Of a stretch of DNA of 64,000 nucleotides, positions 306 through 57,925 are shown piece by piece. Both the position numbers and the translations under genes were made by a program. Location of the stretch: the NCBI GenBank assembly GCA_035236585.1, contig CP141126.1:10553001-10617000 (forward strand), given 5' to 3'. Every line of letters begins with the position of its first letter. Positions within the stretch are counted from its first letter, which is position 1. The notes under the pieces are model-generated. The model had not been told where the DNA came from, did no database searches, and saw only the letters and a program-made list of their open reading frames with translations. Source of the DNA: Warburgia ugandensis. Its lineage: Eukaryota; Streptophyta; Magnoliopsida; Canellales; Canellaceae.

Positions 306-3300
306 TGTGGCGACCTAGGTTTTTATAACACATTTTATAATACATTTTGTAAAGATAGGGCCCTTAGAGTAAAAATTTTTCGCAAACCAAAGCAGCGGAA
401 ATTCTTTTCTTTCGAATTTGTTTTGTAAAACCTAAGTCACCACTTCATACATAACATAAGTAGAATTTTGTATAAGATAAAATTCCATTGAAGGAATATA
501 CTTTTATTAAACTTGAGGGATCCATCCAGGTGGTTCACAAGATACCTGACCCATTGTATCCTTACAATACTTGTCCAAATATACAATCCAAATTACAAAG
601 TTCAAAATTCTATACATGTTCTAATACAGTGATTCGAGGGATATACTGATTACATTTATTCTTCAATTGTTCTTCAAGTCTTGAGCTCCTAAGTCTCCTT
701 CTTCGTATCTCGAGATATTGTAAACATTCGAACATTTACAATATCTCGGCAAGCTATGCTTGGTAGGGATAAGAATGTAAGTGATTGTGATGATAATCTC
801 AATATTCAAGTATCCCATAATTCGCTTCTATCATAAACACATTCATTAATAACTATTAATTATAAGGACATCTCATTTCCTTGTCATTTTGTGTTCACCT
901 TTATACATACATATTGTATAAGGACAAATCCATTAAAAATGTAAAAATAATCAAGCATCATTTCTATACAAAGGTGATCAACTCTTTTCATTATAAGAGA
1001 TTTGTATTTCAAGCTAGTTACTATACAGGAATTTCCCTTCTTGGGAAAAATATTGGTAATATACAATTACCCGACATTTCATCATGTCATCCCTTAAGGC
1101 ATTTCACTATGCCAATTTCATATGCATCATAGTGCAAAATAATCAAGGACTACTATAGCTTGCAAATTGATCCGCATGCGCGCGGATAACCTGTTCAATA
1201 ATCCACTTATACCATTCTCGGTGGAAATTACAATATCCATGTCCATATGGGAGGACCATGGCTGTCACAAAGTGGTGGCCTTCCCATAATTGCCCCACCC
1301 GACTTTTAGCCTTTTCTTAGGCTTGGTATTCAATATCATCAAGTTTCGAGAGAGTGGGTGGCCAAACCCTCTTAACTCTCCTAGCATAGCATCCCAGGAG
1401 CTTATGCCTCGTTTAAAACAAAACCCCAAGCCTCCAAGCTTGTATGTAAAATAATACTTATACATATCGGACTATTTGTCTGTTTATCTAGAATTTGGAA
1501 TATTTTCTACTTTCCTATTCACTTAGGGTTGTTCTCAATTCTCAACTTGACCATTTAATACTTATTTTCCTCATCATTTGGTTGGATCATATTTTAATTT
1601 GAGGTATTTACCTTAATATATATATCGTATCATACATGTCAATACTTCAAAACATAAGATCATGTATTAGACATGTATCTTCATGTAAAGGCATTCTTAA
1701 TAATCCACCTACCTCACTAAGGTATTCTTACTCCTTGAAATCGCCATAGTCTCGATCAACATATATACTGTCCAAAATCATATATATAATGTCAATTTTC
1801 TAATCAAGGGTACATACTACATGGTCTTTGATCATCCTTATGTAGGATGATCTGAATCTTTCTTCCTTGAATATCCTATATCCATGGGTTTAATATCATC
1901 TATACAAATACTATCTATATCATACATAACAATCTAATTTACCTAGATGTTTCTTTTCCTTATTGTTTTTGATCATACAAGATCTCATCTTGTTTGATCA
2001 TCCTTATCTCACTTACTATTTTTATTAGGGTTAGATAATTTGCTATCTTTTTATGTTCTTATTATTATTCAACCAGTTAGTGTCTTACTTGGTTGAAGAT
2101 AATTTATTTCTTCCTATCACTAGACAACTCCTCCTTATTTCAGATGACCAAGACTGCCATTAAAGTCTGCTCAAAAAGTGGTTAATACAACCCTCATGTA
2201 AGGAGGCGTTAGACCTCTCTTACGTCAATGGGAGGTGAGGGAAAAGCACTTGGCTCTTGTATACCCCCTATAACCACAATGTTCGAGTCCACTGGAGTGG
2301 TACTAGCTCAACCTTTGACAAGGTTCCTATGAGCTCTTTACCTTAAGTCCCTTCTCTAATTGATTTTAATTAATTTCCATGGATATGCACAATGTCATCC
2401 ATGGATGTTCATTATTTTCCTATTTTGGAGCCAAGGAAATGATAAATCATTCCTTATATTGTCCTACTAACTATAGCCCTTACTAAGTCAAAATCATTCA
2501 TTCATCTTAGTTGTCCATGAATTTCTATATTTCATTAGTTTACATTTTTGGTGATTTATGCTCCTTATATCTTAACAATTACTTAACAATTGAATTAAAT
2601 ATGACAATAAGTAAATCATCAACTTGAAAGCATAAATCAAATATAAATTTAACAACTAAGTACTAACATTCTTCCTACGAATATAACTTAAGCTAGTGAA
2701 ATAAAACTAACATGATCCTAAGTTATGAAACACATCTTCTATCATAATGAAATCATGTTTAAATCCTAATTTACACTAACATGATCCTAAGATAATCAAA
2801 TCTACTAAAAAATTACTCATTTAGGGCATATCATACTAAAATTTAAAGATTACACTATCATGCTTTCTAACTTAGAACATAAATCACATTTACACTTCTA
2901 TATCCAATAAAAGACAATTAAAACTTAAAACATAAATCACATTTAAACTTATATATCCAATAAAAGACAATTAAACTAATTTTATTAAGATTATTATAAA
3001 CCTTTAAATATGATCCAACCATTAGATCTTAGGTGTTTTCCTTTAGATTAAGGGTTTTAATTAACTTTAGGGCTTTTAATCCATTAAGATCCAAAAATCA
3101 TATCCACATGATTTTGTCACATTTCATCCATGATCTAACTGGATTCCATCATCATATCACCCCTTTAATCCATCCCAAGGATCTGATCATACTTGATCTC
3201 ATTGATCAAGTGGGTCCCTTTGTATCTTTTTATTTTAGGGTTTTTCTACCATAAAGGGTAGATCCCTTATTTTATCCAAGATCTGTCCAAATTAACCATA

Positions 3301-4771
3301 GATATTACTTTATTATATTATTATATCATCACTAAAATAAATTTCCAAGATCTGATCACCTCAGATCTTGAAGATCTTAGAAATTGGACACTTATTTAGA
3401 AAAATACAGAAAAATACAGAAATAAATTTTAGAAATATTATGACTTCATTAGAAACTAGACATTACAAGCTTTCCATAGCTTCTTTCTGATCTCAATTTG
3501 GAGTTCATATGACTCCACATTCTTAAATTGAAGTTTTCAGCCATTCCTAGGGTCTAGATTTGATCTGGGCCCACCAGAATTAATCTCTCTCAATTGAGGG
3601 TCCAAACCTTGTTAGATTTTCTTGAAAATTGTATCCTAGGGGTTTTTGACCCTCCTGGATTGATTGGAAAGCTCAAAATTTCAATCGAGCTCTCTATCAC
3701 CATAATTTGAAGGGGCTGGTATTTACTTTATTTTTACCATTTTTCATTCAAATTAAATTACAGAAAAATAAAAATTATACTAAAACATAATAAATATGAA
3801 TGGGAAGTAATTCCACCTACCTGATTGGAGAAAAACAATATAATTGATGCCCAATTTGAGAGAATTACCCGGTTGATGATAATATAGCCCGATTATCCAC
3901 CTTTTGTGATTTTCTGTTGTTGGAACCGTTGGATCTTGAAATTGATTTGGGGATTTTGTATATACTGTAGTATAGGATGTTATGGACGGTGGAATTGATG
4001 AGATTCTTCCTGAACGGAGTGCCTAATTGAATTTAGGTCTCTTGTTCCAATTAGAAAGAGGAGAGAGAAATAAGGAAAAGAGAGTTTGGGGAGGGATGAA
4101 GGGGAATTTGGGGCTGAAATTCCAGGGAAGGTTTGGAAATTTCGTGGTTAAGGTTGTGAAAATTTTTGGAAATTTTTGGGACATATTTATAGCCAAATTT
4201 GAATTTTTTATCATTTCTTTTGATAAGATATTTTATTACTTTAGAATTTTTAATTACTAATGCATTCTCCACTCCCACTACAATCTCCACTACTATCTCC
4301 ACTACCAGCAATAATGCATTGAGAAATTATTGGTGCTTCTAGAAACTTGGCCCACTTTGTGGCCCCACTTTTATGTGAAAAGACCTTTTTGCCCTTTTTA
4401 ACTCTAAAATTGGAGAATAATAGGCAATATTTGTCCGAACTCAGAATCGAGCGTACTTAGTGGCGTTGGAATCGTATTTCTAAGTACTTCATGAATATTG
4501 AGGTCTTATTTCTTGGATATGGGATATGGGTAAAATTACCATTTTACCCCCAAATGGAAAAATTAAGGAATTTTCATTTTAACTCAGAATTGAACGTACT
4601 TAATGTTGTTACGATCAGTTTTCCAAGTACATCCATAATTTCTATTTTTTAATTTATAATATAATCTCTATAAAAAGAGAATTTTCAATAACCTAATATT
4701 CCACTTAATTTCTAAAAATTCAAACTTTATTAATTTTCCTTAATAATTTACAAAAATTCGGGGTCATTACA
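306..4771 (+). mobile_element. Solo LTR, 4.47 kb (LTR A), inserted in the Copia reverse transcriptase
   Basis: The block starts TGTGGCGACC and ends GGGGTCATTACA. It is flanked on both sides by ATATA (301-305 and 4772-4776), a 5-bp target-site duplication. Copia reverse transcriptase sequence stops at the left edge and resumes at the right edge. It has no coding domain, primer-binding site or polypurine tract. It aligns along its whole length with LTR C (56536-62134): shared starts, the AAAGCAGCGGAAAT motif near 390, a hairpin near 711-748, a GTGGGTGGCCAAACCCT block near 1355, the AGGAGGCGTTAGACC block near 2200, and the GAGCGTACTTAGTGGCGTTG block near 4448. Termini are Ty3/Gypsy-like, but superfamily is inferred. 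LTRs of this length are rare; LARD-type derivatives are an alternative. Confidence 0.88.
711..748 (+). other. Hairpin in LTR A
   Basis: Arms 711-724 and 735-748 are a perfect 14-bp inverted repeat around a 10-nt loop. It is followed by GCAAGCTATGCTTGGTAGGG. Matching hairpins with altered but still paired arms occur in LTR C and in block B. Confidence 0.85.
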
Positions 4772-5519: not shown

Positions 5520-5774
5520 AAATCGTGGGGGAGAAGAGAAGAAGGAGAAGGAGGAAGGAGAAGAAAAGAAGGGGAGAAGGAGGAGAAAAAACTCGATCTG
5601 GGTTTTCTCCTCTAAGCAGTTTGGTGAAGCTGAAGGAAAGAAGCAGAGGGAAAAGGAGGGATTCCAGGCAGTGATGGGTTTTGCTGGAAAACGAGAGGAA
5701 GGGGAAAACGAAAACTAGTTTGCAGGAAAACGAGAAATGAGAGGGGTTTGCCAGAAAATGGGGAAGAAAAGGAA

Positions 5775-5862
<88 letters not shown>

Positions 5863-6450: not shown

Positions 6451-9400
6451 AGAGGCCCCTTAATCCAACCCATCCTTCCTTTGTAAGGGGATTTGCCATC
6501 ATTGGTCAACTTTGCCTATAATTGCTAGATTTGCCATCATTGCCCAAATTTGGTTAAATTTGCTAGATTTGCCATCATTGGTCAGATTTGCCCAGATTTG
6601 TGGTATGGGACCCATCAAAATAAGTTGATCTGAACAGTCCAATGTACTTTGGCTTATCTGCAAAAACAAAATACAATATTAGAATTATCTTATATGGATA
6701 ATTAGCTATAATGATCATCCGATCGTTAACTTTTCAAATTAATAGTTGGATGATTGATTATAGCTAAAATTGATTTAAAATCACAAAATTACCTTATTAA
6801 ATGATCTAATAAAATAATAATCTAATGTTATTTTTGACAAAATTAAGGACTCAACATATTCTTTTACAACAAGACAAGCTTTATATTTGTCAATTTCACC
6901 ATCCTTGTTGAGCTTAGTTTTATAAACCCATTTCACACCAATGGACTTTTGCCCACTTGGAAGATATGATAGCTCCCAAGTGTTATTTTTTTCGATTGAT
7001 TGAATCTCCTCATTCATGGATTTTTACCATTTTTCATCTTTGACAGCTTCTTGGAATGTTAAAGGATGGCAATCTGCAAACAAAGCAAAATGAGCAATTG
7101 AATCATCATCAGATAAGTCATCTCCACTTACATAATCCATCATCCAGTTTGGCCTTTTTTCTTGGGAGTGGCTGAACATCATCAATATGCTCAACTACTG
7201 TTGAATTTTCACTAGAAGATTGAGGTTGTTGGTTTGCAACAGGTGATTGCGCTTGCTGTTTAAATTTGTCTTCACCTTCATCAAAAGTGACTGAAATAGG
7301 CTGCTGCCTTGAACTTTTTTTGTTCTAGTTCCATGTATTCTCCTCATAAAAAACAACATCTCTACTGATTATAATCTTCTATGTGATTGGATCGAATAAT
7401 TTATATGCCTTGAAAGCTTCACTTATGTTAAGAAAGACACACTTTTCACCCTTATCATCAAGTTTATTCCTTTTCTCATTTGGAACGTGCGCATAAGCAA
7501 TGCAACCAAAAATTCTGAAGTGATCTACAACCTGTTTGCACCCACTCCAAGCCTCCTCAGGTGTCATGTTTTGAACGGAAAAAGTAGGACTTTTGTTTAA
7601 CACATGAATGCTCCAATTCACTACTTCCTTCCAAAAATTCTTTGGAATGCTCCCTCTTGCTAGCAGGCTTCTTACCATGTTGAGCATAGTTTTATTTTTT
7701 CTCTCAGATACACCATTCTGTTGAGGTATATATGCAGTTGTGAGTTCTCTTCGAATACCTTTTTCATCACAAAATACTTCAAATTCTTTTGAACAGTATT
7801 CTCCACCACAATTAGTATGAATAGTTTTAATGCTTTTTCCTGTTTCCTTTTCCACGTGTGCTTTAAAGCTTTTGAATACACTAAAAGCTGCTGATTTCTT
7901 CGGCAAAAAATAAACCCAAGTCTTTCCAATATAATCATCAATGAAGGTAACTAAATATCTTTTACCTCCACTAGAAGATGGATTTATCGGCCCACAAATG
8001 TCAGAATGAACCAGTTCCAAGACATTCTTTGCTCTCCATGACTTTTTTTGAGGGAATTGTGAATAATGTTGTTTGCTAACAACACATTCTTCACAAACTT
8101 GAGAAGGAATGATAATTTGAGAAAGTCCTAACACCATATTTTTCTGTTCATAGACCTGCTCATCTTAAAGGATCATATATCTCACAAGTACCATTCTGAA
8201 TAATTATTACATAACTTTTTTCTTGCAATTGACCAGCACTTAACAAATTACTTTTCAAGTTAGGAACATAAAAAGTATTGGAAATTGTTTCTACAAAATC
8301 ATTCTTGGTTCTTATGTTGATATCTCCTTTTCCCATTACATTCACAGTAGAGCAATTACCAAAACTCACAGTAGAATGAAAGCCTTCATTTAAATAAGAA
8401 AAAGAAGACTTACTGCCATACATGTGATTGCTGCAACTTATATCAACATACCAAACATCTTATTCAGGTTCCTTGTTTGCATGGTAAGCCATCAATAAAG
8501 TTTCTACTTCCTTATTTTCTGCAAAATTTGATTTCTCCCCTTTTTCTTTGTCGTTAGGCAATTTAGTATAACATTCAGAATGATAATGACCAAATTTATG
8601 ACACTTGAAGCACTCTACCTTAGATTTGTCAAGTTATTGATCTCGTCCTTTGTCTTTGCCTTGAAATTAGTCATCATTAGCTTTGAGAATTTGACATTGT
8701 CTACTTCCATCTCTGTTGCCTCGACCTCTTCTTCCTTTACCTCTACCTCTACCCCTTCCTCTAGAATTTGAGAATTGAGTAAAGGTAGAAGCCTTTAGAG
8801 ATTGCTCATTTGTAGTTGAACTTCGGTTCATCTTTTGTTCATGGATGAATAAGGAGCTCTAGAGTTCATCAAGTGATAGCTCATCTATATCTTTAGATTC
8901 TTCAATTGAGCAAACAACATAATCATACTTTGATGATAAGGAACATAGTATCTTTTCAACAATAGCAACGTCTTCTATTTTCTCACCATAGAATCGCATT
9001 TTGTTTGCTATCCCCATGGTCCTTGCACAATAATTGGTAATAGACTCACCATCTTTCATCTATAGAGTCTCAAAATCCCTCCTCAAAGCTTGAAGGTGTG
9101 TACGCTTCACCCTTGACGAGCCTTGATTTTTTTCTTCACTGAATCCCAAATCTTTTTAGAAGTTTCTTTGCTAAGAATTGTTTCCAAGATAAACCAGTCA
9201 ATTGCTTGAAAAAGATAATTCTTTACCTTCAAATCTTTTAGTTTCAAAGCTTCTAACTCTGCTTTTTGTGCATCTATCAAAACTATACCAACCTCTGGCT
9301 CTGCTATACCGCCATCAACAACCTGCCAATATTCTTTGGACTTTAAGAAGTTCTCCATTAGCATGCTCCAATAGTCATAGTGACCATCAAAGCGAGGAAT

Positions 9401-9565
9401 AGCTGGTTGCACAAAGTTTTCTGAACCCATGAATGAATCGTTGCTATTGCAATGGAACAAAGTTACTATTGTACTTTCTCACCTTTTTCTTCACTCACGG
9501 ATCTTACTTCTATTTTGACACTCACAATTTTTTCTTTGCACTCAAGCACTCTCTTCCCTCACAGT

Positions 9566-9578
9566 GGCTCTGATACCA
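9566..9578 (-). other. Primer-binding site of the Copia element
   Basis: The minus strand reads TGGTATCAGAGCC, the standard complement of the plant initiator methionine tRNA 3' end used by Copia elements. It lies directly inside the 5' LTR. Confidence 0.9.
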
Positions 9579-9579
9579 C

Positions 9580-25820: not shown

Positions 25821-28800
25821 ATGAGTTTTTTACTGAAAGAAGCGCTGAAATCGCTCTGCGGTGAGAATGGATGGTCGTATGCGGTTTTCTGGAAGATCGG
25901 CTGTCGGAATCCGACGTAAGTGAACCTGCATTTCTTTTCTTTTCTCATTTGAAGTTTTCTTAGTACAATGATATCTGTTATAGAAGCTAGGGTTTGGTTT
26001 GGTGTTTCTACTTCCTTGCTTTCTCCTTAAAATTCTCGTCGCATTCTTTAGTTCTGTGTTATGTATTTTCAGCTCGTTTCATCTCTACTGTGTCTTGTAA
26101 ACCCTAGGTTTTCTGTTTTTCCTTCTTTTAGGAATGATAATTATCTTTTCAGTCTGCATAGCTAAAGAAAAGTAGTTTTGATTGGTTTAGTGTTTATACC
26201 TCAGACCAGCTAATTTTCTTAATTTTTTAAGTTTGCAATGTCCAAGCGGTGGTAGTTTTAGCTAGTTAAGCTTGATCGTATTCAGATCAACTGGTTTTTC
26301 TTCATTTTCCTTTTAAGATTTTGGAATGGGAACTTTGGAACTTGATTTTGTCTTTCTTTGACATCGTTGTTGTAGTTGTATCTTCCTAGTTTTAGTCTTC
26401 GAAAAGCAGGGAATTCCGCAAAATAGAAAATTTAAGTGTTTGGATGCCACTCTTCTTGTGCATCTTGGGGGCATCACAGTTGTGTGTGCATGATTTATTT
26501 CTCTGTTGAGGATTTACCTGTTGTTGGATTTCTTCCATTTTTCTTTGTTTACTTTGGGAAGCTCATTATTTTCCAAAATTTTTAATTAAGACTTAGTAAT
26601 CGTCTGATTACATACACGTTTTCATATGAAAATCCAAAGCATTTAGGTCGTTGGGTAGATCATGCTTCAGCGGTAGTACTTCCAGTCTTATCTTTTTGTA
26701 ATCTTTCAGATTTTGGAATACTGTTAGACGATTATTTCTTCTTCTGCATTCTCAGACAGAGCAACAAATACGAATCTCATTTTCTTGTTAGAATCATTAT
26801 TTTAGATTGCTGTCCAGAGACCGCGGCTTTTGTAGTCTGTTGCTGTGAAACAGCTCTGTGTCTGGCGTTAATGTTTTTTAAGAAGTACTGGTTTGAGTGG
26901 TTTGGCAGGATTTTGGTCTGGGAAGAAGGGCATTATGATCCTGTAAGGTGTTCAAGTCTCCCTAGTGTTTCTGGAAGTGGAAGTACAGAATCTCTTCTTA
27001 AACAATGGGAGTTGCTTTGGAACAGTTCTGCAGATCAGGATGGTCAGGTTAACTGCCAAACAGACGATGGAATTGGTATTCTCATTAACAAGATGATGCA
27101 GCAGGTTCATTTCATAGGAGAAGGGTATGCGGCTTCTCTTTCTACTGTCTTCTTCTGAGTTTTTCACCTACTGTTAACTGCTTAGTGTTTAAATACCATC
27201 TGCTTTAATGGTTAATCCATCGAAATTTCTATTTCAGGATAGTTGGCCATGCTGCCTTAACAGGAAATCATCAATGGATTCTTCTTGGAACCCATGTCAA
27301 TTATGGATCTATGTCCAAGGTATTGTTGGAAGTTTTGTTTTACTTTAGTGAAGACCATAGTTTTCCACAAACTTCTATATTAACAAAATCACATCCTCTT
27401 TTGGTAGTTCCATTTTGCTTGTTGGTTTGGCAAAGATGTCTTGAAACAGAATCTTTTAATATATTCATTGTTGAGGAAGATACTGTCACAGCTTTGATGT
27501 TTAGGAGAAGTTACTCATATATAAGGCGTTCTATGAGGAGAATCTTCAAATGGTTTCTGAAACTTCCCTTAAGTGATGTTGTTGTTCAACTTCTTGTTCT
27601 CTCAAAACAGTATGCCCATGGTTGAAATTCCAATGTTAGTGGTCATTTTCCTGGGTTTAATAAGTAACTTGCCAATTACTTCCTATATTGAAGCATGATG
27701 TCTTGCATGATCATTTTCTTGGAAGCAAATCACATGGGCCTTTTGTTCCCTTGTTTTCAGGGCCAAACTGAGGTGCACCACCAATTTTTGGCTGGCATAC
27801 AGGTCCACTTCTTGTGTTTTCTTACTTTTCTTTTCAATGCTATATATATTGTGAATGGCCTACGTGTTCTATTGGAATATCTTATTCAAATTAATTCCAA
27901 CTTTGCTGAAAATACGCTTTCTTTGCAGACAATTGCTGTTATTCCACTGCTTCCATATGGCGTGATTCAGCTTGGTACCACTCGGATGGTAAACTTTCGC
28001 AATTAAGTGCTTCAACTGAGACAAATGAGCTGCTGTCACTCACTTCTCTTGTTCTTACTTGCTTTAAGAACTTTGCTTGTCAGCTTCTATGGTTTAGGTG
28101 GTGCAGGTTACATTTATTCGTTTGATAGACAAGATATATAAGCATGGTGACTGATGAGAATCCTTATATGCATACAATGGAGTTGTTTCCACATAACTGA
28201 CAACTTAGACCTATATGCTAGATGGGGACCTGCTGACTGGACTGCCACTGTCGCAGACGTCACCTACCCTGGGCTGAAATGACAAACCAGCTGGGGTGAA
28301 AATACCCACTATGAATGGATGTGAGCTCCCACAGAAGCAGTCCTGCTAGCATTTTCACGTTAGGAACTAGTGATCACATGTATTTCTTCTGCGCCGCCTT
28401 CCTCTCAAGAGAAGGGATTTTGGTTGTTGTTCTTGAATATGCTTCTTCATTTCTATGTTAAGAAGAAAGAAGATGGTAGGAAATTAGAGCCTGTTTGATC
28501 CCCTGTTTGTTTTGTTGTTTGATTCCAAATCCTTGTCCTCTGTTTCCATATTTGAGGGAAATGATGAGATGCATTGTGTCTCTCTTCATACAGGAAACAG
28601 GAAAAGTCTGTCGAGATATCGTTTCAGTCGCCATTCTCCTATTGGCGATTCGATTGTTGCTCGACTACATGGTTGATTTGACCCTTGCTTTCTCATTAAA
28701 AAAATAAATAAATTAGGAAGGAATTCCTTGTCAGGACAAAACCAGTTGAAGTAATAATGCATCCTGGTGTCTGCTCATTTATTCCAGGATGTTGCTTAAT

Positions 28801-31800
28801 TTATTTAGTGGGAAATAGTCCAGTAGAACATACCTGCACGTTTTGTTATTTATACCGATTGTGGATCTGATTTAGCAATAACCTCTGGTCATTGATTGTT
28901 CCCTTCATTTCTTTGATGGATGTGCTTCTTGTTGATTTGTATGTTAAGAAGAAAGGAGATGGTAGGAAATGACAGCCTGTTTGATTCTTTGTTTGTTTTG
29001 TAGTTGGTTTCCAAGTCCTTGTCCTCTAGGAAATGAAAGCCTGCTTGATTCTTTGTTTATTATGTTGTTGGTTTCAAAATCCTTGTCTTCTGTTTCTATA
29101 TTTGAGGGAAATGATGAGATGCATTGTGTCTCTATTCATACAAGAAACAGAGAAAAACAACGTATGTCAAGATATCGTTTCAGTCTCCATTTTCTGATTG
29201 GTGATTCGATTGTTGCTCGACTACATGGTTGATTCTACCCCTCCTTTCCCATTTCAAAAAAAAAGAAAAGAAAAAAAATGAAAAAAAATTCTATGTGAGA
29301 ATTTCCTTGTCAGAGTAAAGCCAGTTGCTCAATTTATTTAGTGGGAAATAGTCCAGTAGAACATACCTGTAATTTTTGTTATTTATACTGATTGTGGATC
29401 TGACTTAGCAATAACCTCTGGTCATTAATTGTTCCCTTCATTGTTTTGATGGATGTGGTTCTTCTTTATTTGTATGTTAAGAAAGAAAGAAGTTGGTAGG
29501 AAAGTACAGCCTGTTTGATTCTTTGTTGTTTTGTTGGTTTTCAAATCCTTGTCCTCTAGAAAATGAAGCCCTGTTTGACTCTTTGTTTGTTATGTTGTTG
29601 GCTTTCAAATCATTGTCCTCTGTTTCCATAATTGAGGGAAATGATGAGATACATTATGTCTCTTCATACAAGAAACAGAGAAAAACAACATCTGTCGAGA
29701 TATTGTTTCAGTCGCCATTCTCCGATTGGCGATTCTATTGTTGCTCGACTACATGCTTGATTTTACCCTTGCTTTCCCATTTCTAAAGAAAAATAAAGAT
29801 TTTATGAAGGAATTTCATTGTCAGGATAAAACCAGTTGAAGTAGTAATGCAACCTGGTGTCTGCTATTCCAAGATAGTGCTCAATTTATTTATTGAGAAA
29901 GAGTCCAGTAGAACGTACCTGCAATTTTTGTTATTTAAAATGATCGAGGATCTGATTTAGCAATAACCCATGGTCATTGATTGTTCATTTCATTGTTTTG
30001 ATGGACCTGACAGAGCATTTTTCTCTTTATTGGTCAATTCTTTTATACTGTTCTTTTAACAGAAGCTGGCACCATAATCTGTACCTGCTATGTATTGGCA
30101 GCACATAATGAAATTCCCTTGTATGCGTGCCTGTGATGCTAACTGATTGGTAAATGGACCCATAAGGTGCATCATACTGCTTGTTCAACAGTAGATTAGG
30201 CCCCTTCCAAATAGTGGGTTACTGTGTTTTGCCAATAGATAGACTTGTTGCTGATATGTTTTGAATGGCCTTCTTGCTGATATTTCTTGTTATACATATT
30301 GAATTGGCTTTTAAAAAACTTTGGGACTAAATGAAACCATGGTATTTAATAGAGCAGAATGGAGGAATAAGATTCATGTGGCCGACCCCTAATTGGGATA
30401 AGGTCTTGATGATGACGATGACGATGACATATTGAATTGGCTTTTGCACATGCTTCAAGAGATTGAATGCTGACAGATAATACTTCCACAAGAAGTATTC
30501 ACGGTTGCTTGATAGACATCTTAATCCAAATAACTTTGTACATTGTGATACCTAGAACAAGAAACCTTATTTTCTGTACTGCAGTAGGTACTTGAACATG
30601 ATGCATGCGTTTGGTAAGCTCATTTGTATGTCCATTTTGGACTTGCATCATAACTGCCAGTTGTAGGTGGACAAGGATTGATATGTCTACTTTTGACACC
30701 ATACCCTGATTTTCTTCAAACCTATTAATTGTTGTTGGGTGGCTTCGAGAGAATATGCTGCCGTTTACAGCCAGCTGTTTCTACTTTTGCAGATCAAAGA
30801 GAATATTGGATTTTTGAGCCACGTGAAGATTTTATTTCTGCAACTAGCAAATGTACCTGGGGCTCTTATGTCTGGTAATATTGAAAACGCACTAGTGCAG
30901 AGAATCCAACCACAGTGTTTGCTTGGAGTAGCTGTTGGTGCAGATCAATCTCAAAATATCAGTGCCAGTGTGGCTACGTTGGCATGCTTCAGTGGGAACA
31001 GCTGTGACAAGCAACTGCTCAGTTCTCCAGTTTCAAGACTTGTTAGTCAGTCTGGTTCTTTACTCCCACAGGTTCATGATGACTCACAAACCAATGCTTC
31101 ACTGCTGCCATTGAACTCCATACCAACTGGAACAGCTGTTGCTCCATCAAATTGTGACATGTTACTGCCCAAGGCTGTTCAAATGGTTAGGCCAAACTTC
31201 CCTATTAGAACTCAACCTGAAAGCAAATCCATGGGATCTCGAGCAGTCTTCTCAAGTCCAGAAGTGCAGTTGAACTCACAAGCTGCACCTCATTTTTCAG
31301 GATCTAGGAACACACAACCGACTGTTTCTGGAATAGGTGTTCATTGTAGCAACATATTGTGTGTCCAGAAACAGAGCCTATCTGCTGTTGACTTGTGGGA
31401 GCAAGCTAGCAACAGTGTGCCCACTTCAAATAGTACTAAGTCACCCCAGCTAATTTCCCAAGAATGCACAATCCCTTGTTCTCTGAAAGATTCTGTCATT
31501 GTTTCATTGCTTGCCAAAAGTGAGTTGCCTGGTATGGGAGGTAATCTTGGATCATCAAGTTCAACTGCAAGTGGTGCCTGGAGATCAGTTGACAGCAAGT
31601 CTTCTTGTCTACCCTTGCAGGGTACCGAACTTCAATCTGGTAATTCATCTGGTATGGGGTTGCTTTCATTGTCCAATCATCCAAATCATTCTTGTGGACA
31701 TCTCTCTTCACAAGGGTCGCAGGTAAGCCATCCCACCCCCATTGTGAATCATACTCAAACTAAATCTGCCAAAGAGTTGCACAATATACAAAGTAGTCTG

Positions 31801-34800
31801 TTTCAACCCCATGTCAGTCCACCAGCTCCTGGTTCAAATGAGCATAGTTCTTGGTTTGAGACTATCCCTGATCTTATTCAGGATTGCTTGATGACAGCCA
31901 GATTAAAGCCTGATGAGGATAATCAAAAAATCCAATTCACATTTTCTGAAAGGAGCGATACTTCTGCAACATATTGTGTAAAGAAAGAGGAAAGTTCTGA
32001 TGACCACCAGAGTCTCAACAGTTCGAGTGAAAGAACTTCAGATGCATCTCTGCATCTGGCTGAGGGAGATTTATTTGATGCTCTGGGTGCACAGCTCAAA
32101 ACCAAACAAGTCAATGCTAGTTCTGATGATATGGTCAGAGATGCGTCAGATGCAAATGCTCAGAGTTTGAGTACAGACATTTCTACATGCATTAGTCAGC
32201 TTGTTGCTGCTCCCTTTTTTGATGGTATGAATGATGGGATATCTGAAAGTGGCATTTTCTCTCAAACTGGGACTGACTATCTTTTGGATGCTGTGGTTTC
32301 AAAGACTAACTCCATTTCCAAGCAGAACTTAGATGATAATGTATCTTGTAAGACTAAGTTAACAAAGATGAGTAGCTCTTCATTTTGTACAAACTCTTCC
32401 TTGTATCATGGGAGCACTGCTTTAGAACCAATCCGTGTAGAGTTGTTTGATCATTGTCGACGACTTGTAAAACCAGAGATAGCTGCTTTGGGTTCTTTTA
32501 AAACTGCATGTAGTTTGGACAAAGCTGGGGAGTGCTCTCAATCTGGCAGCACATATAAATCTCAGATCAGTTCATGGATTGAAGATGGTCAGAATGTGAG
32601 ACGTGACAGTATTTTAACTGGAAACTCTAAAAGGGCTGATGAAACAGGGAAAACAAATCGGAAAAGGCCGAGGCCTGGGGAGAGCTCGAGACCTAGGCCA
32701 AAAGATCGCCAGATGATCCAGGACCGTGTCAAGGAGTTACGTGAAATTGTGCCCAATGGAGCAAAGGTGATTTATTTTCTGTTTCCATCACTTCCTGATG
32801 TAGTTTAATTAAGACTTCCGATGATCATTAATGTTGACTAGAGCTTTGATAATACTAATTTTATACTTTTATCCCATTGTTTCTTTATTGTGGAACAGTG
32901 CAGTATTGATGCATTATTGGAGCGCACGATTAAGCATATGCTTTTCCTGCAAAGTGTGACCAAACACGCAGACAAACTCAAACAATCGGGAGAGTCAAAG
33001 GTTTGTAATATTTGTTTTACTGATTAATTTCGTGTTTTTACATTTCATTTATCAAATTTGCCCCAGCAAAGCTTCTTCTTGTAAATTGTCCAAAGCTCTC
33101 CCTTATGCTATGTCATGTTCACATGCTTATGTTATTTGTCACTTGGATATTCCAGTATCAATTTGTGAATGTGCATCTAAAAGACGTATAACGAGCACAA
33201 GGGCATTGGGATTTTTTGAAAATACGATGCTGAAATGATTAGAACCTTATTTGATGTGAAGAATTATGTTAGCAGAATACTAGATGTTTTCATCTGTATG
33301 CTGAGTACTACAGAGTGTAAAATAAGCTGCTGCTTGAATTATATGATAAATCTTATATAGCATGTTTTGTATATGCATTCATGCGTAGGGCTGTTATGTA
33401 ATGTACATGTGCTTATCCTTAGGAAAACTTCCATGGGCTGGAGCACAAGCCATGGATCCCCTTGGTTGCATAATCCCTACCCTTTGATTCTTAGAGGCCT
33501 TTTATCATAAATGTGGATAATTGCTTTTCTATTTTTGAACTCTTCGTGTAGGGCCCAATAAAGGAGATCTAGAATTGTAGTGTCTGGTTAAATTTGGCAC
33601 CTGAGTCATCTTATTGAGGCCTACTGGATAAATGTTTTGGATGGTTGGACATGTAGCCTCCACTGGCTACTGTGTAATCATATAACTATGTATGGTACAT
33701 ATGCATATGCTAAGATAAGAAAAAAAGAAAGAAAAGAAGTTGCATATGCAGGTGATCAGGGAATAGAGTGTATTTATTTATATAGAAAAATATTATATTT
33801 ATATCTGATCTGTAGAGATACAGAAATTTGTTCATCATTCACTTAATGTTAGAGAGTCAGCAAGCCCGCAAATGTTGCCCTTGATGGTGGGGGCCTTGGC
33901 TTTCAGGGGATTCTACATGATCACGTGTGGCCTTGGAAGGTCAAATTGTGTTTTACAGATTACAGATGTAGGGAAAGTTGTTGGGGCTTTTATCTAATAG
34001 TCTTGGGTTACAGCTTTTCCATAGAGTGGTCTTAAATTTTTTTTTCATACAGCAATCAAATTAATTTTGACATCTTGGAACTGCACATTACGAGAAAAAT
34101 AAATGATTAACACTATGTTGTCCTTTATCCTTCATACATATACAGATTATTAGTAAGGAGGGTAGTTTGCTCTTGAAGGACAACTTTGAGGGTGGTGCAA
34201 CATGGGCATTTGAAGTTGGTTCTCAATCCATGGTCTGCCCAATCATAGTTGAGGATCTGAATCCGCCTCGTCAAATGCTGGTGGAGGTATGCTATTTTCC
34301 TGTGTCATTCATTTCGGAAATTTTATCTCCAAGGCTTCTTACTTCCAGTTTCCTGGTTCCTCCAGATGCTCTGCGAAGAAAGGGGTTTCTTTCTGGAGAT
34401 AGCTGACTTAATAAGAGGGTTGGGATTGACCATCTTGAAGGGGGTGATGGAAGCTCGCAGTGATAAAGTCTGGGCACGCTTTGCTGTAGAGGTAATAATA
34501 TTCAACAGAAGTATTATTTTCAAAATTTACTTCCATCGGTTCACTTCACTGCTGTTATGCCCTATCATGATTCTTTTGATGGGTCTTGATTTCCCCTGCA
34601 TTTCTGGAGAGAGATCAAAGGGCAACGTATGGTCATCAAACTGTGGTAAAGAAGTTCTGTTTGAAATTCAATCTCATCTTTCCTCGTACTTTCCCAAGTT
34701 AATTTGAATCTTCAGAAAGGACTAGAACCTTCTTCGGGTATAACTTCTGTATTGTCTAGTTATCAGGGTTCTGTCTGATATCTGGAAAGCGCAGTGTTGA

Positions 34801-45617: not shown

Positions 45618-45841
45618 GCTCCCAGTTCTCTAGGCAACTTATTTCATCTTTCTTCTTATTCTCCATTTCTCACTTACTCTCTCCAAAGAGACCCCATTTG
45701 AGTACTTCCCAAACCTATTTTTGTTCCAGTCTTTGAAGCCTTCCTCCCTCTGTAACAACAAGCAACAGAGAGACACCTTTGGAGTTACTTCGTACCACCA
45801 TTTTTTGTTACAATTTCATACAAGTTCTCCATCTCCTCGAC

Positions 45842-48199
45842 ATGGAAAGTGGAGCAGGCAATGATGAGAAAATGGGATTTTTGTCTAAACAATGGGAGAA
45901 GGTCAAGAGAAAGACATGCAAGGTGGTGAAGAAAGTGAAAAAAATAGGAGAAGATGATCCAAGAAGGATAATTCATTCTCTCAAAGTGGGATTGGCCCTC
46001 ACCTTGGTTTCTCTCTTCTACTATTTTAGACCACTCTACAATGGCTTCGGTGTCGCCACTATCTGGGCTGTTTTAACAGTTGTCGTTGTGTTCGAGTATT
46101 CCGTAGGTGAGTGCTAGACTAGTGGTCCACATTTCAATTTGGAAGATAATTATTGCCTCCCCTTGTTGATATTTACACCCTTCTTAGGAAAAACGTCAAT
46201 ACCTAACGAGATCCGGAAATATTTCAGGTGCAACACTTGGGAAAGGACTAAATAGAGCATTCGCCACATTAACAGCGGGAGTTCTAGCCGTAGGAGCCCA
46301 TGAACTAGCAAGCCTCTCTGGAGCTAAAGGAGAACCTGTAATTCTTGGAGCTTTTGTCTTTATAGCAGGTATTATTCATGATTACTTCACACACACAACA
46401 CACACACACACACACACACTCTCTCTCTCTCTGTTATATTTTGATATGAATGATTTTGGATTTGGTGGTGTTGCAGCGGCCATAGCGACATTTGTTCGCT
46501 TCTTTCCAAAGATCAAGGCAAGATACGATTATGGGATGGTCATATTTATACTGACATTCAGCCTTGTAGCTGTGTCAGGATATCGTGTGGATGAGCTGAT
46601 AGAACTTGCCCACCAACGATTATCAACGGTAGCCATTGGCAGCTTTACATGCGTTTTCGTCTCCATCATCGTTTGCCCAGTTTGGGCTGGCGAAGATCTC
46701 CATCGACTGGTTGCACTTAACATTGAAAAGCTTGCGAACTTCTTAGAAGGTACTAAGCACAGAAAAAGAGGAAAAAAACAAAAAACACGGTTTCTCTGTT
46801 CTTCCTTGTGGAGTCTAATGCTTAGAAAATTTGCAGGATTCCCAGTTGAGTATTTCAAGGAAGAGGAAATAGAAGAGAATGCTGCGGATGGTTCTAAGGA
46901 CAAGAATTGGCTCCAAGGATACAAAGGCGTGCTCAATTCAAAGAGCTCCGAGGATTCTTTGGTGAGTCATCAGTAATTCTTAAAATAATTACCATCCAAA
47001 AGAGAGCCATCTTCTTTCAATGTGGTCAAGTTAGTGAGGATATTTTCGTACTGAAGCTTGAGACAGGGTGCCTTTCTTACACTTCGTTGACATATGCATC
47101 TCGCCGGGTTGGCTCACTGCGCTTTTCACTGCCTTTTTAGATCAAAATATCGCTGTATTTTACCTCAATGGCCGACCAAGATCGGCTAATTTTTATAAAT
47201 TTTTTCTTGTCTCTAGTGGTTAGGGAATGCCACTAGATTTATACGTTTGACAAATTAACCCTGAATATGATAAAATGATTAATATCCTCATTCATAGGTA
47301 AATTCATCTATCAGGCTACCAATCTATTTTTTAGCGTGTGATAAAAGATGGATTACACTTAAAAGATGATTTAGACATGGTGAAATGTCGGATGGATGTG
47401 TTTTGGGCACTACTCATGTTAATCATTTCATTCATTTTTGCAGGCTAATTTTGCAAGATGGGAGCCGGCCCATGGACGTTTCCGGTTTCGCCATCCGTGG
47501 GACCATTATCTGAAGATCGGATCGTTGACTCGCCAATGTGCTTACTATGTGGAGGGTCTTAACTGCTGTCTCAGCTCACAGAAAGAGGTACCAAGAGAAC
47601 TGTTCTACCAACATACCACTGTTTCAGAGAAAATTAGTATAAGTTGGTCCTTTATGCATGAATTATTAAATTAGTTATCTTCCTGCCGTGTTGCTACTAC
47701 GCTTCAGGTACCGGCAGGATTCCGGCAACAAATTCAGGCAGTGTGTACCAAGATGAGTTTGGAATGTGGCAAGGCATTGTCGGAATTAGCATCATCGATT
47801 CGAACAATGACAAAACCAATGCCAGCCCTTCATCGTGTAGAGGCTGCAAAAACCGCTGCTGTCCATCTGAAAACTTTCCTAAAAACCTACTTCTCTGACA
47901 ATACCGCTGTCTTAGAGATCCTACCAGCAGTCACCGTTGTATCTCTACTCATTGAGATCGTGGCTCACACCGAGAAGATTGTGGCATCCGTCGATAAGCT
48001 CGCCAGCACCTTGAAATTCAAGGACCCCTCCGTACCAATAGAGAGAACACCATCGCTCCTTCACCGATCTACTGTCATACCAGTTTCGGACACTGATAGT
48101 CCTCCTCCTGTTGTTATTACTGTTTATGAGACTACACCGGATTCACCGGAAATTGCTAAAGCTGATGAAATAACAAAGAAACGAGAAGTGGAAGCGTAA
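45842..48199 (+). CDS. Aluminium-activated malate transporter (ALMT family anion channel)
   Basis: Six exons give a 479-residue protein: 45842-46106, 46228-46368, 46477-46749, 46837-46961, 47444-47587, 47708-48199. All introns are GT-AG with matching phases. The start is the first ATG after the TATA box; the frame is open upstream but has no earlier ATG. The N-terminal half has the family's membrane helices, with typical blocks [20 protein letters not shown] and [14 protein letters not shown] across exons 1-2, and [16 protein letters not shown]. The cytosolic half has the diagnostic WEP motif at residues 274-276 ([14 protein letters not shown]). ALMT proteins are anion channels carrying malate and related anions across the plasma membrane or tonoplast, in aluminium resistance, guard-cell movement and pH or ion balance. 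Length and the short tail suggest a clade like ALMT1/2/7/8/10, but paralogue and membrane cannot be settled. The gene looks intact. Confidence 0.94.
46391..46433. repeat. (CA)n/(CT)n microsatellite in ALMT intron 2
   Basis: A CA run followed directly by a CT run fills much of the 108-bp second intron. The CT part lies just before the acceptor and may serve as polypyrimidine tract. Confidence 0.9.
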
Positions 48200-52115: not shown

Positions 52116-52128
52116 ATACGCACCGCCA

Positions 52129-52602: not shown

Positions 52603-53497
52603 CTTCCTGTTACTTTCCTTCTTACGTCTTTGTGTCTATACAAACGAACACGCAAATACGTATATGTTTCCTTTTGACGAGTATGAGCCGACAGACGTGG
52701 GGATTTTACATATTTATTGATCAAATTAACCATTTATCCTTTATGCTTTGCATATGATGAGTAGTGCAGCTATTGAACCCGATCTAACGATAGCAAGCCT
52801 CTGATTTGTGAGTATCAATGGACCCTTGGAAAATGGAAAACAATATTCTATGTCAATCCAGAGAGCCTCACAAATCAACAGTTCAGGCCAGAAGAAGAAG
52901 AATTTTGGTGTACTGTCCATCGATGCACTTAGATAAATCAATTATTTGAATCACTTAGAAAGTCGGTTCCGCAAGGATCCTATGGGGGTTTTCTAGTTTC
53001 TCCATTTTCTATAGAAGAAGGCATAACGAAGGCACATCGATCTGCTGTTTCGACTACAAGAATAAACTCAGTGAAAAAGGTTTTGGGGCCTGCTGGGGCA
53101 GTGGCACAACGGTGGTTACGACATGTCCCAATTAAATAAGTCAGCAAGCCTCACTGTACCATTAATTCATACTATTCCTCTGGTTCTCCTTATCTTGTGT
53201 ATCTACTGATGTAAAAGTCATACCAAAAGGGAACAAGTAGAATTCAAGAAATTTTGCTTCTAAATTGCTACACGTGGACGGTTGGAGCTCTTCATAAGTA
53301 ACGGTTTAAATTCAACAAAGGAAAATGCCATTCCTAGATGCTACTCCTCCCTTTTGACATGGTTTTTACCACAATATAGTAGATATCGAAGATTAGGCTA
53401 GTGAGATAAACGGTATAGACCAATGATACAGTGGGGCCCAGTATACAAAACTGAGTTGCACGCTGCTTACATACAGCATTCCTCGTACTTCATAAGA
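52603..53497. other. Intergenic, no gene recognised
   Basis: A GGCAGTGGCACAACGGTGGT stretch near 53098 could be the head of a decayed SINE. Nothing else is recognisable. Confidence 0.5.
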
Positions 53498-54104
53498 TGT
53501 ATTGTAATAACCCAAATAATTAAATAATAATAATAAGAGGGGTAAATTGGTAAATACATGTGGGCTTATAGAGCGTGGGACCCACGATGAGGCTATAAAA
53601 GTTTACCCTATCTTTTGTACGGCCAAACTATTCACCTCGGATTCCGTGTTGACAACGCAGGGCAATGACGTGGAACTCCCCTAACAGGCGCACGGAGTGA
53701 TGATCTAACTACGGTAGGCCACCATCCACCATTTCCCTTGTTTTTCTTATAGTTTCCGTCATTTTAATGCCGAAAAACGATGTGGATTGCCGTTTTCCGA
53801 TGAACTAGTAGGTGTTACTATCCTTGTTAAAGTAAACAGATGAAACGGAATCAGATCATGATCTGAACCCTTCATCTTGTGCGTTATAACATGAAGAACA
53901 ATATCATGAATTTTCATGGTGATCGGACGGCTAGGGATGCCGAAAAACTCATAAAACAGTAAATGGAGAAATTTTAGGAACATGACAAAAATCGTGTAAA
54001 AACCCTAGATAATGATAGAGTTGGTTAAAAAGGGGCGTAAAAATGGGATTTTCGCAAAAAACTGAGCAAAATGGTGCAAAAAATGAACCATTTGGACACC
54101 TGAG

Positions 54105-54390
54105 CGTCGCCGGCGGTGACACGCGTCACCCCTATCGCATGCCATGCGTGCAGGTGGCACGCGCACGACACGCAACTTCATGCGCATTGCACCCGCTGTG
54201 ACACACGGTGCCAACGCACACCGGCAACACGCGCACACACGGAAACAACGAGCTCGCAGCGCACCGGCATACTCGCGGGCGCAAGAAGACAGTACACGCT
54301 TGCGCATGAAGACGGCGCACACATGCACAGCGCGTCCGCACGAAGTCAATGCACGCATCAACCGCACGCGTGCGCACGTGTGAGGCATGC
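54105..54390. repeat. CpG-rich, CA-rich island within block B
   Basis: An abrupt ~280-bp change to G+C-rich sequence dense in CACGC and GCGCAC motifs, inside an AT-rich LTR. It contains the inverted repeat GGTGAC-ACGC-GTCACC near 54115. All six frames are partly open here because stop codons are rare, so the apparent Arg/His/Thr-rich frames are not evidence for coding. Confidence 0.8.
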
Positions 54391-55687
54391 TTTTTAGGGT
54401 CCTTTGACCCGTCCATTTATAAAAACTTGATTTTTAGAAGCTACAGAGGTCCAAATCGCAATCCGAAAGAGGTATTGCGATCATATCGACGACGCGAACT
54501 TAGATTTGACTTGAAAATCTAGATCTAAATTCCTTTTTAGGGGTTAAATCACTGAATGTTGTGAGATAATCTTAATCAGGCTGATCAATGGATGATCATG
54601 CCTTAGATCTTGATGGTATACATCAAATGTGAGATAATCTAGGGGATTAGAGGGTTAAACATTATTGAATTGCCAAATGATGGAAGATTTATAATGTAAC
54701 AGGTGTGTAACGTGATACTTCCACGCACTTGATTTCAGCACTGCATTTACTGAAGTAGGTGATTTCATTCAATTATTTCATGATTTTAATAACCATGAGT
54801 GGATTTTTAAAGGTGTGAGACATGTGTTTTATATCTTCTCATGCACATAAATAGATCTTTATTTTCGTGTTGTAGCATGACTTTTCAATTTGGTAATAAC
54901 AATGTATGCATGGGCTTTGATTGTGTTATTGAGATTATTTATAGTGCATTTACATGATTTATAAGATTTATATTTTGCCGATGATTTATGATGGGTGCTT
55001 TCACCCGGTGGGTACTATGTTATGAGGGTTGTAGGGTTGGCCACCCGCCCTCTGACTTTGTGATGATGATGATGATTAGACACCGCCCTTGAGTGATACA
55101 TAGCCAGGTACGTAGGTGGTGGTATCATGGGTAGTCCCCCCTACGGGTCCATTCCTTCCCATGGGGATAGAGAAAGTCTCTCGTTTGGGTGTCGTCGGGG
55201 AGTGGTAGTGGTTCAGATGCTAATGGGGTTGCCATTGCAGCTTAGTAACCCATATAGTTATTGTGCATGTTCATATGACTTTATATATAGGGTGAACAAG
55301 GGCAAGCCGAGCCTAGGCCGTGAGACACTCCAGGGGCTAATGCGGGGTTGCACGGGAGGGACCAAAATTAGTATGGGTACACATCACCAGTGATTGAGTA
55401 TATTGGAGCATTTTGGTATAGTTTTGATACAGTATTTTGTTATCCATGATTGCATGCATATTATCTTGTGGATGTATATACTAGTATGGTTTTGATGTAC
55501 TTACCTTTGTATTTTGATCATGCCTTGCATGCTATACTAATTTAACTCGATATCCGTTTTGTGAAAGTTGTAATTGTAAGCATTCAGTTATTTGACATGT
55601 CTTGAGTATGCTTCCTTTATGAGAATCCTATTGTAAATTTTTGTTAAACTTTATTTGAATATAATCACCTACACAAGCATAGCTTGT

Positions 55688-55716
55688 TGAGGCATTGCCT
55701 TGTTTTGCAAGCCTCA
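55688..55716 (-). other. Hairpin in block B
   Basis: TGAGGC(A)TTGC pairs with GCAAGCCTCA, with one bulged base and an 8-nt loop. On the minus strand it is followed by ACAAGCTATGCTTG. Equivalent to the hairpins in LTRs A and C. Confidence 0.75.
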
Positions 55717-56245
55717 GATTTGGAATGTGATAACAAAAAGGGAAAGCAGGTGGAGTAGCGGGGATTTGGAAGAAGACTTGAAAACCGTCCATCTCATTTC
55801 CTTATTGGGACATAGCTTAGAGTATGTTATTTGGACTAGACTTTTGAGACTTTCTTAGATGTGGATACATTTTTATAGATTGGACTCATATTATGGTATG
55901 GAAGATTGTTAAAGTTTAGATGGAAATAGTGTGGTGGTTATGGATGAAACCTGGTGATGTTTGATTTGATTTATTATCATCTTTAATTAGCCCATGTATT
56001 TATTGTGGTTTTTAATCGAGCATGCTCAGAGTATCAAGGTTTTAATGTTATTAATGATTATAGTTTTCGAATGTGGTTGACTCTCGAGGTTTTCGCTTTC
56101 AATCAAATTTTTTTTTTTAGCTGCACTAAAAGTTCTATAATTTAAAATTTTAATTTACAGGGATCCTGTTTATTTTTCTTTAAAATATATTATTATTTCT
56201 CATATTATGAGGAAAAAGGTTTATAAAAACCCGGGGTGTCACACG

Positions 56246-56509
56246 TGAAGCTTTGGTCGATGAGGCCGGGCTGATAAGGGTGGGCCAAGAGTGCTGGCAG
56301 GCTTCTAGGAAAGGTGAGGGACTGAGAGTTAGTCCCACATTAATAGGAGGAGGAGTTTTGGACTGTTGATAAAGGGATGGTGGTCTCTCATGGTAACAAT
56401 GCGTTTTCCCCTACGGGAGAAGAATAAAGTCGTGACTGCTGGCGGTGTATGGGCGCCGTCAGTGGAAAGCAGACAATATTGTTACTTTGGGCAAACCCCG
56501 GTCATTATA
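56246..56509 (+). repeat. 5' LTR of a TRIM element
   Basis: 264 bp starting TGAAGCTTTGG and ending just before a primer-binding site. It pairs with 62213-62475. Landmarks: GTTAGTCCCACATT, TGATAAAGGGATGGTGGTCT, GTCGTGACTGCTGGC, GGCGCCGTCAGTGGAAA. By eye roughly one base in seven or eight differs between the two LTRs, so the insertion is old. Confidence 0.85.
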
Positions 56510-56510
56510 G

Positions 56511-56523
56511 TGGTATCAGAGCC
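56511..56523 (+). other. Primer-binding site of the TRIM
   Basis: TGGTATCAGAGCC, complementary to initiator Met tRNA, lies one or two bases inside the 5' LTR. Confidence 0.9.
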
Positions 56524-56976
56524 TAACCCCGACCCTATAACGACCCGGGTTTTTGAAACACATTTTATAATATATTTTTCAAAGGCAAGGGCGTCCCCTC
56601 AGTAAATTTTTTTCGCCAAACAAAGCAGCGGAAATTATTTTCTTTTCAAACTTGTTTTGAAAACCCAAGTCACCACTTCATATTTAACATAAGTACACTT
56701 TGTGTACAAAATAACATTCCATTGAAGGAATATGATTTTATTAAACTTCCAAGATCCATTCAGTGGTTCACAGTACAGCACGGTATCAGTACAATACCTG
56801 TCCAAATTACATAATCCAAAATATACAAACCTCACCATACATTAAAACTCTCAATACAATACAATTCTCTCAAATAAAATACATGTCTTCAAGAGGAGGT
56901 ATCTTGTTTGATTATTCATCCACATCTTCTTAAGTCTTCTATAGTCTTAAGCTTCTAACCCTCCTTCTCTGTATCT

Positions 56977-57012
56977 GAGGTATTGTAAACATGGAAACAT
57001 GTACAATACCTC
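56977..57012 (+). other. Hairpin in LTR C
   Basis: GAGGTATTGTA (56977-56987) pairs with TACAATACCTC (57002-57012), with an inner CATG/CATG extension and a two-base bulge. It is followed by GGCAAGTTATGCTTGGTAGG. Confidence 0.85.
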
Positions 57013-57925
57013 GGCAAGTTATGCTTGGTAGGGGAATACAAAAACATACTACTTCATCAATATAAGAATATATACCTCGATCCTTATTTCATCATAGTCA
57101 TTCATTCCTGAGTACTCTCCACATAGAGTATATACATTATTTATGTAGTACATGACAATTTAGTTAATATAGTGAAAATTGCTCAAAACTTGTTACTTTC
57201 CCTGGCTATACTCCCACTTAGAAGAGCAATACCTAGCCAAAGATTATTCAACACTTGTTCCTTCCCTTGGCTATACTCTTACATAGGAGAGCAATACCTA
57301 GCCAATCCTCATACGGGGTTTTCATTATAGGAACTCATGTAATAGCATATCATCATGCCATGGCATCATACTATGCCTATCATATGTGCATTATAATGCA
57401 AAATACATTAGGACTACTATGCTTACAGCCTCAACCCGTACGGCGCACCCGGATAACTGCATAATCCTCCACTGACACCAATTGTGAAATAATCAATCAA
57501 TGTCCTCATGGGGTGGACCATGGCTATCACAGTGGGGCCTTCCCATTACTGCCCCACTCGACATTTAGCCTCTCTTTGGGCATGGTATCATCATATAAGT
57601 TTCAGGAAGCGGGTGGCCAAACCCTCATAACTTCCCTAGCATAGCATCCCCAGTCTCTATCTCTGTGTAAAACAAAACCACAAGTCTTCATACTTGTATG
57701 AAAAATATATTGTACATATCAGACAATCTATCTGTTTAACTAAGGCTGGAATATTGTACATACCCTATTCTTAGGGTTTCCTTATTCTCTATATCTCATC
57801 ATTTTCACCTCACTAAACTTGATCAATAATTTTGATCAAGTGGATTAGATTATGAGGTTGGATCAATTTGTTTGATCCTTTAGTTAGATCACTTAATTTG
57901 ATCATATAGTTTTGCACCACGTATC

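Follow-up and report, generated by a model that had tools for sequence, protein, structure and literature searches.

Stem-loops such as TAR and the poly(A) hairpin lie in the repeat (R) region of retroviral long terminal repeats (LTRs). In plants, conserved symmetric motifs capable of forming hairpins have been reported from the non-coding LTRs of Sireviruses (Ty1/copia), where, in the parts of PMC2829016 and PMC10760457 devoted to them, many palindromes occur per LTR, mostly with a CGG-CCG core and upstream of the TATA box. Here we describe a module of two adjacent hairpins (H1 and H2) in three long LTRs, named A, B and C, within a stretch of 64,000 nucleotides of the Warburgia ugandensis genome (GCA_035236585.1, contig CP141126.1, positions 10,553,001 to 10,617,000; referred to below as the window). 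As in Sireviruses, the motif is conserved, symmetric and situated in non-coding plant LTR sequence. Unlike the Sirevirus palindromes as presented in those parts, it is a single two-hairpin unit per LTR, lies downstream of the TATA box, belongs to elements that are Ty3/gypsy by their predicted domains, and has arms that covary between families. It also resembles the retroviral R stem-loops, as far as PMC3601003 covers them, in being a paired structure, probably in R, that is kept while the LTR varies; it differs in the carrying elements, in its sequence and in an R region that would be kilobases long, and the likeness is one of description only. According to the portion of the same source that treats them, plant Metaviridae LTRs could not be modelled.

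Architecture and covariation of the two hairpins

In the sense of the element, H1 (CAAGC-AUA-GCUUG) is followed directly by H2 (CUGAGRYAUUG..CAAURYCUCAG). The H1 loop is variable (ATA, ATT, AATA, AATT, GATT and others), as is the length of the H2 loop among copies. Pair 2 of H2 is C-G instead of U-A in LTR A of the window and in one genomic copy (L139; individual copies carry L numbers throughout), and pair 12 is U.G in family E. A hairpin in each of the three LTRs had been claimed by the original prediction, and re-reading the sequence bears out its positions and arms, except that in LTR B the hairpin is present but its own 3' arm lacks one T that is found in its relatives. The small inverted repeat said to come after the hairpin is adjacent to it in all three LTRs, but in the sense orientation it comes first: since the minus strand carries A and C and the plus strand carries B, the order is H1 before H2 in all three. 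Exact matches to CAAGYTATGCTTG in the window fall at 750-762 (+), 57015-57027 (+) and 55674-55686 (-). With up to one mismatch allowed, three matches are found against 0.59 expected, a number reached in 1 of 100 shuffles.

For the covariation analysis we aligned 63 of 91 hairpin rows (alignment A1), leaving out 25 of the 30 near-identical copies of family C (including L012), L039, L040 and the duplicate L054. RNAalifold predicts both H1 and H2 from these 63 copies. Among 1033 pairing cells 97.0% pair, compared with 31-41% when the partners are slid by 1-3 columns. Cells altered on both sides number 67 against 24.0 in shuffles (0 of 500 as high), and seven pairs carry both-side changes against 3.8 (reached in 5 of 500). 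Further pair types are not unusually numerous (16 against 14.2, 51 of 500). We also used a home-made null model, in which the tree was taken from the flanks only and each column was simulated at its own rate (2000 simulations). Pairs 36-65 and 37-64 of the alignment (H2 pairs 6 and 7) were reached by none of the simulations, pair 42-59 (H2 pair 12) gave P = 0.001, and pairs 17-30 and 31-71 gave values of 0.02-0.03. The other nine of the 14 pairs were not significant; in six of these, one or both sides are invariant. Pairs 6 and 7 are found in each of their four combinations (AU/UA, GC/UA, GC/CG and AU/CG), which means that they changed separately. The number of independent covariation events is uncertain, because the flanks barely align and the tree between families is consequently poor.

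The original prediction had argued that the arms differ between copies and still pair, so that the fold itself is maintained, and had suggested a covariation test on copies of the family. Three copies alone are insufficient for covariation; the genome-wide set proves it, and the R-scape-like test on the 63 copies, which yields significant pairs, supports a maintained fold. Neither an absence of covariation nor mostly independent arms was found at the family level. Individual decayed copies do carry changes in one arm only, which is what dead insertions should show.

As a decay control, we examined departures from the family sequence in 95 copies (winB, L034, L012, L049, L053 and L054 were left out for arm indels, mis-cut rows or duplication of window copies). 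Family C (31 copies) showed 19 single-sided departures and no double; family A (39 copies of several subfamilies) 32 single-sided ones and, among doubles, one paired and two unpaired; family E (5 copies) two single-sided and one paired double; and B (20 copies of several families) 13 single-sided, two paired doubles and one unpaired. Inserted copies thus decay mostly without compensation, from which we infer that the paired changes between families arose while the elements were active. One-sided changes to G.U versus A.C amounted to 15 versus 12 in A, 6 versus 11 in C and 9 versus 3 in B, and to 12 versus 14 in the 82 listed B-type copies, after 31 versus 16 in an earlier, smaller set. With G.U and A.C about equal in the larger sets, the hoped-for evidence for RNA over DNA pairing is gone. 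This balance may reflect neutral decay, most copies probably being dead. Selection for pairing is well supported.

Conservation and abundance in the host genome

When 15 representatives were anchored at the hairpin, mean pairwise identity was 0.28-0.35 in 8 of 11 flank windows, which is about the random level. The remaining three windows were higher: the eight bases that precede H1 gave 0.53, the six that follow H2 gave 0.71, and the stretch 6-20 bases past H2 gave 0.43. Within the module, the opening four bases of H1 reached 0.93, and the two H2 arms, of 12 bases each, 0.82 and 0.86. Gapped flank identity in 40 random pairs was 0.51 and 0.48, versus 0.47 and 0.44 after shuffling. Among ten gag-linked copies of families A and E, which are closer relatives, the hairpin windows reached 0.85, 0.70 and 0.88, with 0.52-0.91 downstream and 0.26-0.73 upstream.

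The window is part of one contig (C1) of a host genome of 1.12 Gb in 14 contigs. The H1 pattern CCAAGCATARCTTG has 3761 and 3716 matches on the two strands (7477), versus 10 and 11 (21) for the reversed control. The H2 pattern (fixed TGAG, ATTG, CAAT and CTCA blocks, loop of 6-20 bases) with a Watson-Crick pair 6 is found 11,747 times (7750 A-U and 3997 G-C), and the reversed control patterns give 0 matches each. The Watson-Crick patterns equal their own reverse complement and therefore count every hairpin a single time; pair 7 is unconstrained in them, and a few of the counted copies are accordingly mismatched there. Hairpins mismatched at pair 6 comprise 160 A.C and 129 G.U copies, counted with an added anchor, CTTGN, that fixes the sense strand, which makes their ratio to the paired counts approximate. 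In the first genome-wide look, LTR B had 2790 candidate relatives and LTR C 5499, of which 40 were scored in each case.

Relatives were also collected without the motif: a gag fragment of L052 (Retrotrans_gag) gave 150 scored relatives, and the module lies near the expected place in the upstream LTR of 20 of 31 gag-linked copies (10 of 15 and 10 of 16 in two batches, the second with 191 bases per copy). The copies in which it was not found differ in kind. L074 and L085 lost it by deletions of roughly 140 and 330 bases relative to their relatives, that of L074 starting at H1; L072 and L077 have other sequence at its place; the stretch fetched for L075 begins downstream of it, as that of L135, one of six misses in the second batch, also seems to do. 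The deletions over the hairpin place in L074 and L085 possibly mark a palindrome-linked deletion hotspot.

Rfam covariance models gave no match at the hairpin in five loci (E up to 0.5), and the longer exact hairpin pattern had no match in prokaryote genomes or viral contigs. Seven viral-contig matches of an 18-base motif were rejected, being without matching H2 arms, and the idea that H1 is a splice or self-cleaving site was dropped on inspection only, with no matching core. The hairpin had been called undescribed; we likewise found no description in one open-access library, which is not the whole literature. A text search for hairpin strings in papers returned matches on other matters, judged by their titles. 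By word count, PMC12218528, on new structured plant RNAs, contains neither "LTR" nor "retrotransposon".

Carrier elements and position in the transcript

The three LTRs of the window and their hairpins are listed below. LTRs A and C are solo LTRs, as matching 5-bp duplications lie on both sides of each; LTR C has TATA in place of a TG-type end. In 111-nt sense-strand folds, A (z = -3.5) and C (z = -2.7) are clearly better than shuffles and B (z = -1.1) is not.

Table 1. Positions in the window of the three LTRs, their hairpins and consensus signals.
Feature	Position	Strand	Remarks
LTR A	306..4771	-	solo LTR, 4466 bp; ATATA duplication each side; ends read, similar to LTR C
AATAAA of LTR A	503..508	-	downstream of both hairpins; read in sequence
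H2 of LTR A	711..748	-	long hairpin, arms GAGATATTGTA / TACAATATCTC, extended
H1 of LTR A	750..762	-	short hairpin, sense CAAGCATAGCTTG, 5' of H2
TATAAA of LTR A	4186..4191	-	~580 nt from LTR start; consensus match
LTR B	53503..56243	+	2741 bp; its two neighbouring 5-mers differ (without matching target-site duplication)
TATAAA of LTR B	53594..53599	+	~92 nt from LTR start; consensus match
H1 of LTR B	55674..55686	+	short hairpin, CAAGCATAGCTTG
H2 of LTR B	55687..55717	+	long hairpin, TGAGGCATTGC / GCAA-GCCTCA; 3' arm one base short
LTR C	56536..62134	-	solo LTR, 5599 bp; GACCC duplication each side
AATAAA of LTR C	56737..56742	-	downstream of both hairpins; also in C copies L006, L056
H2 of LTR C	56977..57012	-	long hairpin, GAGGTATTGTA / TACAATACCTC
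H1 of LTR C	57015..57027	-	short hairpin, sense CAAGCATAACTTG; fifth pair broken in LTR C copy
TATAAA of LTR C	61548..61553	-	~581 nt from LTR start; consensus match

The carriers have the target-site duplications and primer-binding site (PBS) of LTR retrotransposons. A PBS, TGGTATCARAGC, lies 2-3 nt after the LTR in six C, three D and two A copies, and also in 2 of 20 B copies. Family A has gag (Retrotrans_gag match) and an integrase end with SH3_Tf2-1, the latter on a piece that lies 3-5 kb downstream from a gag copy of 93% identity and is taken as part of the same element. In a B-type element Retrotrans_gag, RVP_2 and Integrase_H2C2 exceed the cut-off, rve stays below it, and a purine-rich tract precedes the 3' LTR; SH3_Tf2-1 is above cut-off in both A and B. 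Chromo (PF00385) in B remains below its cut-off of 25.1 (21.5 bits, E = 2.2e-4), and the piece taken for A has no Chromo match. The predicted gag, protease and integrase domains thus assign the carriers to Ty3/gypsy; within it, they are probably of the chromovirus type. From the length of the LTRs, together with protein motifs that we take to be Tekay-like, we infer that the carriers are Tekay-like. Long LTRs, a methionine tRNA PBS and a chromodomain at the integrase end, here a candidate, are features of the Tekay (Del) clade in the parts of PMC3605345 and PMC6317226 that describe it; the word hairpin is in neither main text. The LTRs here, of up to 5.6 kb, differ from those of beet, where, in the rows shown in PMC3605345, intact Tekay LTRs measure ~2.5-3 kb and CRM and Reina LTRs 0.4-1.3 kb.

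In families C (6 copies) and D (3 copies), the first 1.0-1.5 kb beyond the PBS contain neither a significant gag match nor a frame of more than 74 residues free of stops; both families nonetheless keep the hairpin module, although gag occupies this place in A. In this they resemble large retrotransposon derivatives (LARDs) and terminal-repeat retrotransposons in miniature (TRIMs), elements for which a conserved RNA structure has been claimed (PMC7215508); the structure of Cassandra, as given in the relevant part of that source, differs in consisting of whole LTRs folded against each other and not of a local tandem hairpin. A post-PBS stretch is common to coding family A and to C (~50 bases, 4 of 6 copies, BLAST) or D (83 bases, 2 of 3 copies), beyond which the sequences are unrelated. 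This shared stretch (L003, L018, L023, L027, L039, L040, L052 and L057) is a second candidate cis signal.

TATAAA was examined in A, B and C; its distance from the LTR start is 560-580 nt for A and C (563 in L129) and 92-100 nt for B (99-100 in L130 and L128). In 9 of 11 copies of families A, C, D and E, AATAAA lies 175-276 nt beyond H2. As the module is situated between TATA box and AATAAA, it probably lies in R. Were transcription to start downstream of the module, the RNA would still contain it, close to the 3' end and as a part of U3. Families A, C, D and E share another conserved stretch, GAACCACTGGATGGATCCTG, which immediately precedes AATAAA and lies ~155-250 nt beyond H2 (for example in L076, L006 and L060). 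Of 21 B-type copies, 7 contain a looser GTGANCATGGATGGACCCTGG-like match that scores above the best shuffle, at about +196 to +219.

Several other features of the window were noted. LTR C sits between two 261-bp repeats of 86% similarity (56246-56506 and 62213-62473), and a PBS-like TGGTATCAGAGC stands at 56511; LTR C therefore seems to be inserted into a small TRIM-like element. Inside LTR C, 57931-58149 is a GATC-rich tandem repeat in which a 55-base stretch occurs seven times at intervals of 27-28 bp, the copies overlapping. Units of ~530-550 bp, three in tandem (families D2, D3, D5 and D6), occupy 28432-30042. On the minus strand, frames at 7379-9478 resemble, by eye, a decayed Ty1/copia gag and integrase. 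Plus-strand frames at 30697-32808 and 45737-48199 resemble host genes, which would encode a basic helix-loop-helix (bHLH)-type factor and an aluminium-activated malate transporter.

Possible roles of the module

We favour, tentatively and at somewhat less than an even chance, a selected two-hairpin stem-loop module that acts in the RNA of the element as a cis signal, likely for packaging or dimerisation. Pairing would then be selected while the elements are active, and the module, judging from its position, would putatively act in the sense RNA. Its location in R would place it at both ends of the genomic RNA, where it could serve in the recognition of the element's RNA for packaging or dimerisation by Gag. 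Packaging or dimerisation is our first choice because two families without gag in the stretch examined keep the module; the packaging step taken alone is the least certain part and must be called doubtful. A still wider proposal appears rather unlikely to us: that the module is a universal two-hairpin handle in the RNA of Tekay-like LTRs, the only structural signal through which both the coding elements and the non-coding families parasitic on them would be recognised, kept while almost all the remaining LTR sequence was exchanged and hence probably present across seed plants.

A number of observations weigh against an RNA signal of this kind. G.U is not favoured over A.C at pair 6 genome-wide (129 versus 160), and by folding z-score the sense strand has no advantage over the antisense (z = -2.0, -4.1 and -3.7 for the antisense folds of the three LTR stretches). 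The arm identity is partly built in, since 14 of the 15 representatives (all but L076) were found via parts of H1 or H2 or via similarity to the window, and among the ten gag-linked A and E copies the hairpin is no better conserved than the downstream end of the LTR. The module is missing from the stretch fetched in 11 of the 31 gag-linked copies. As for the signals that delimit R, TATA and AATAAA are consensus matches only, and among 21 B-type copies AATAAA was seen in L093 alone, the stretch examined reaching only ~240 nt past H2 in 19 of them. Families C and D look non-autonomous on the first 1.0-1.5 kb of their interior only, and the whole argument comes from one genome.

The alternatives share much of this evidence. 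Our second candidate is that the hairpin controls 3'-end formation, either keeping the poly(A) site of the 5' LTR silent or that of the 3' LTR active. The AATAAA found after H2 in 9 of the 11 A, C, D and E copies, beside the conserved GAACCACTGGATGGATCCTG, fits such a role, and with an R of ~2-4 kb premature polyadenylation would be a real problem for the element; we nevertheless think it unlikely, given that only 1 of 21 B-type copies has AATAAA in the stretch examined and that the distance from H2 to AATAAA exceeds that of known plant upstream elements. A little less probable still is that pairing matters in the DNA, as a cruciform or a single-stranded hairpin used by a host protein, in reverse transcription or in integration. 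DNA hairpins would covary equally well, the lack of preference for G.U over A.C agrees with them, and palindromes may cause deletions such as those across the site in L074 and L085. A rigid dimeric or two-site protein bound to double-stranded DNA is disfavoured, because the spacing between the arms varies, the ATTG-CAAT loop differing widely in length while the two variable pairs stay complementary; the helices of A and D, extendable by U.G and G.U steps (by eye), and the U.G at pair 12 of family E also speak against DNA pairing.

Covariation could also arise without function if template switching in reverse transcription or replication copied one arm onto the other, so that the palindrome repaired itself. 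Palindromes are correctable in this way, but single-sided departures dominate in families C and A and 289 copies are uncompensated at pair 6. Frequent correction in the genome is thus not seen, though correction may take place during reverse transcription alone. Template switching would not explain why the module is retained in LTRs whose other sequence is lost, and we consider it improbable. A target for host small RNAs, with which the part of PMC10760457 on maize Copia links LTR palindromes, is the least probable of the alternatives, to the point of being hardly credible here, because a site that damages the element would not be expected to be conserved.

A compact covarying module, preserved where the LTRs around it hardly align, offers a handle for finding and aligning solo LTRs. 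It makes testable by what means the RNA of plant Ty3/gypsy elements is selected for packaging, and in what way non-coding families may borrow the machinery of coding ones.

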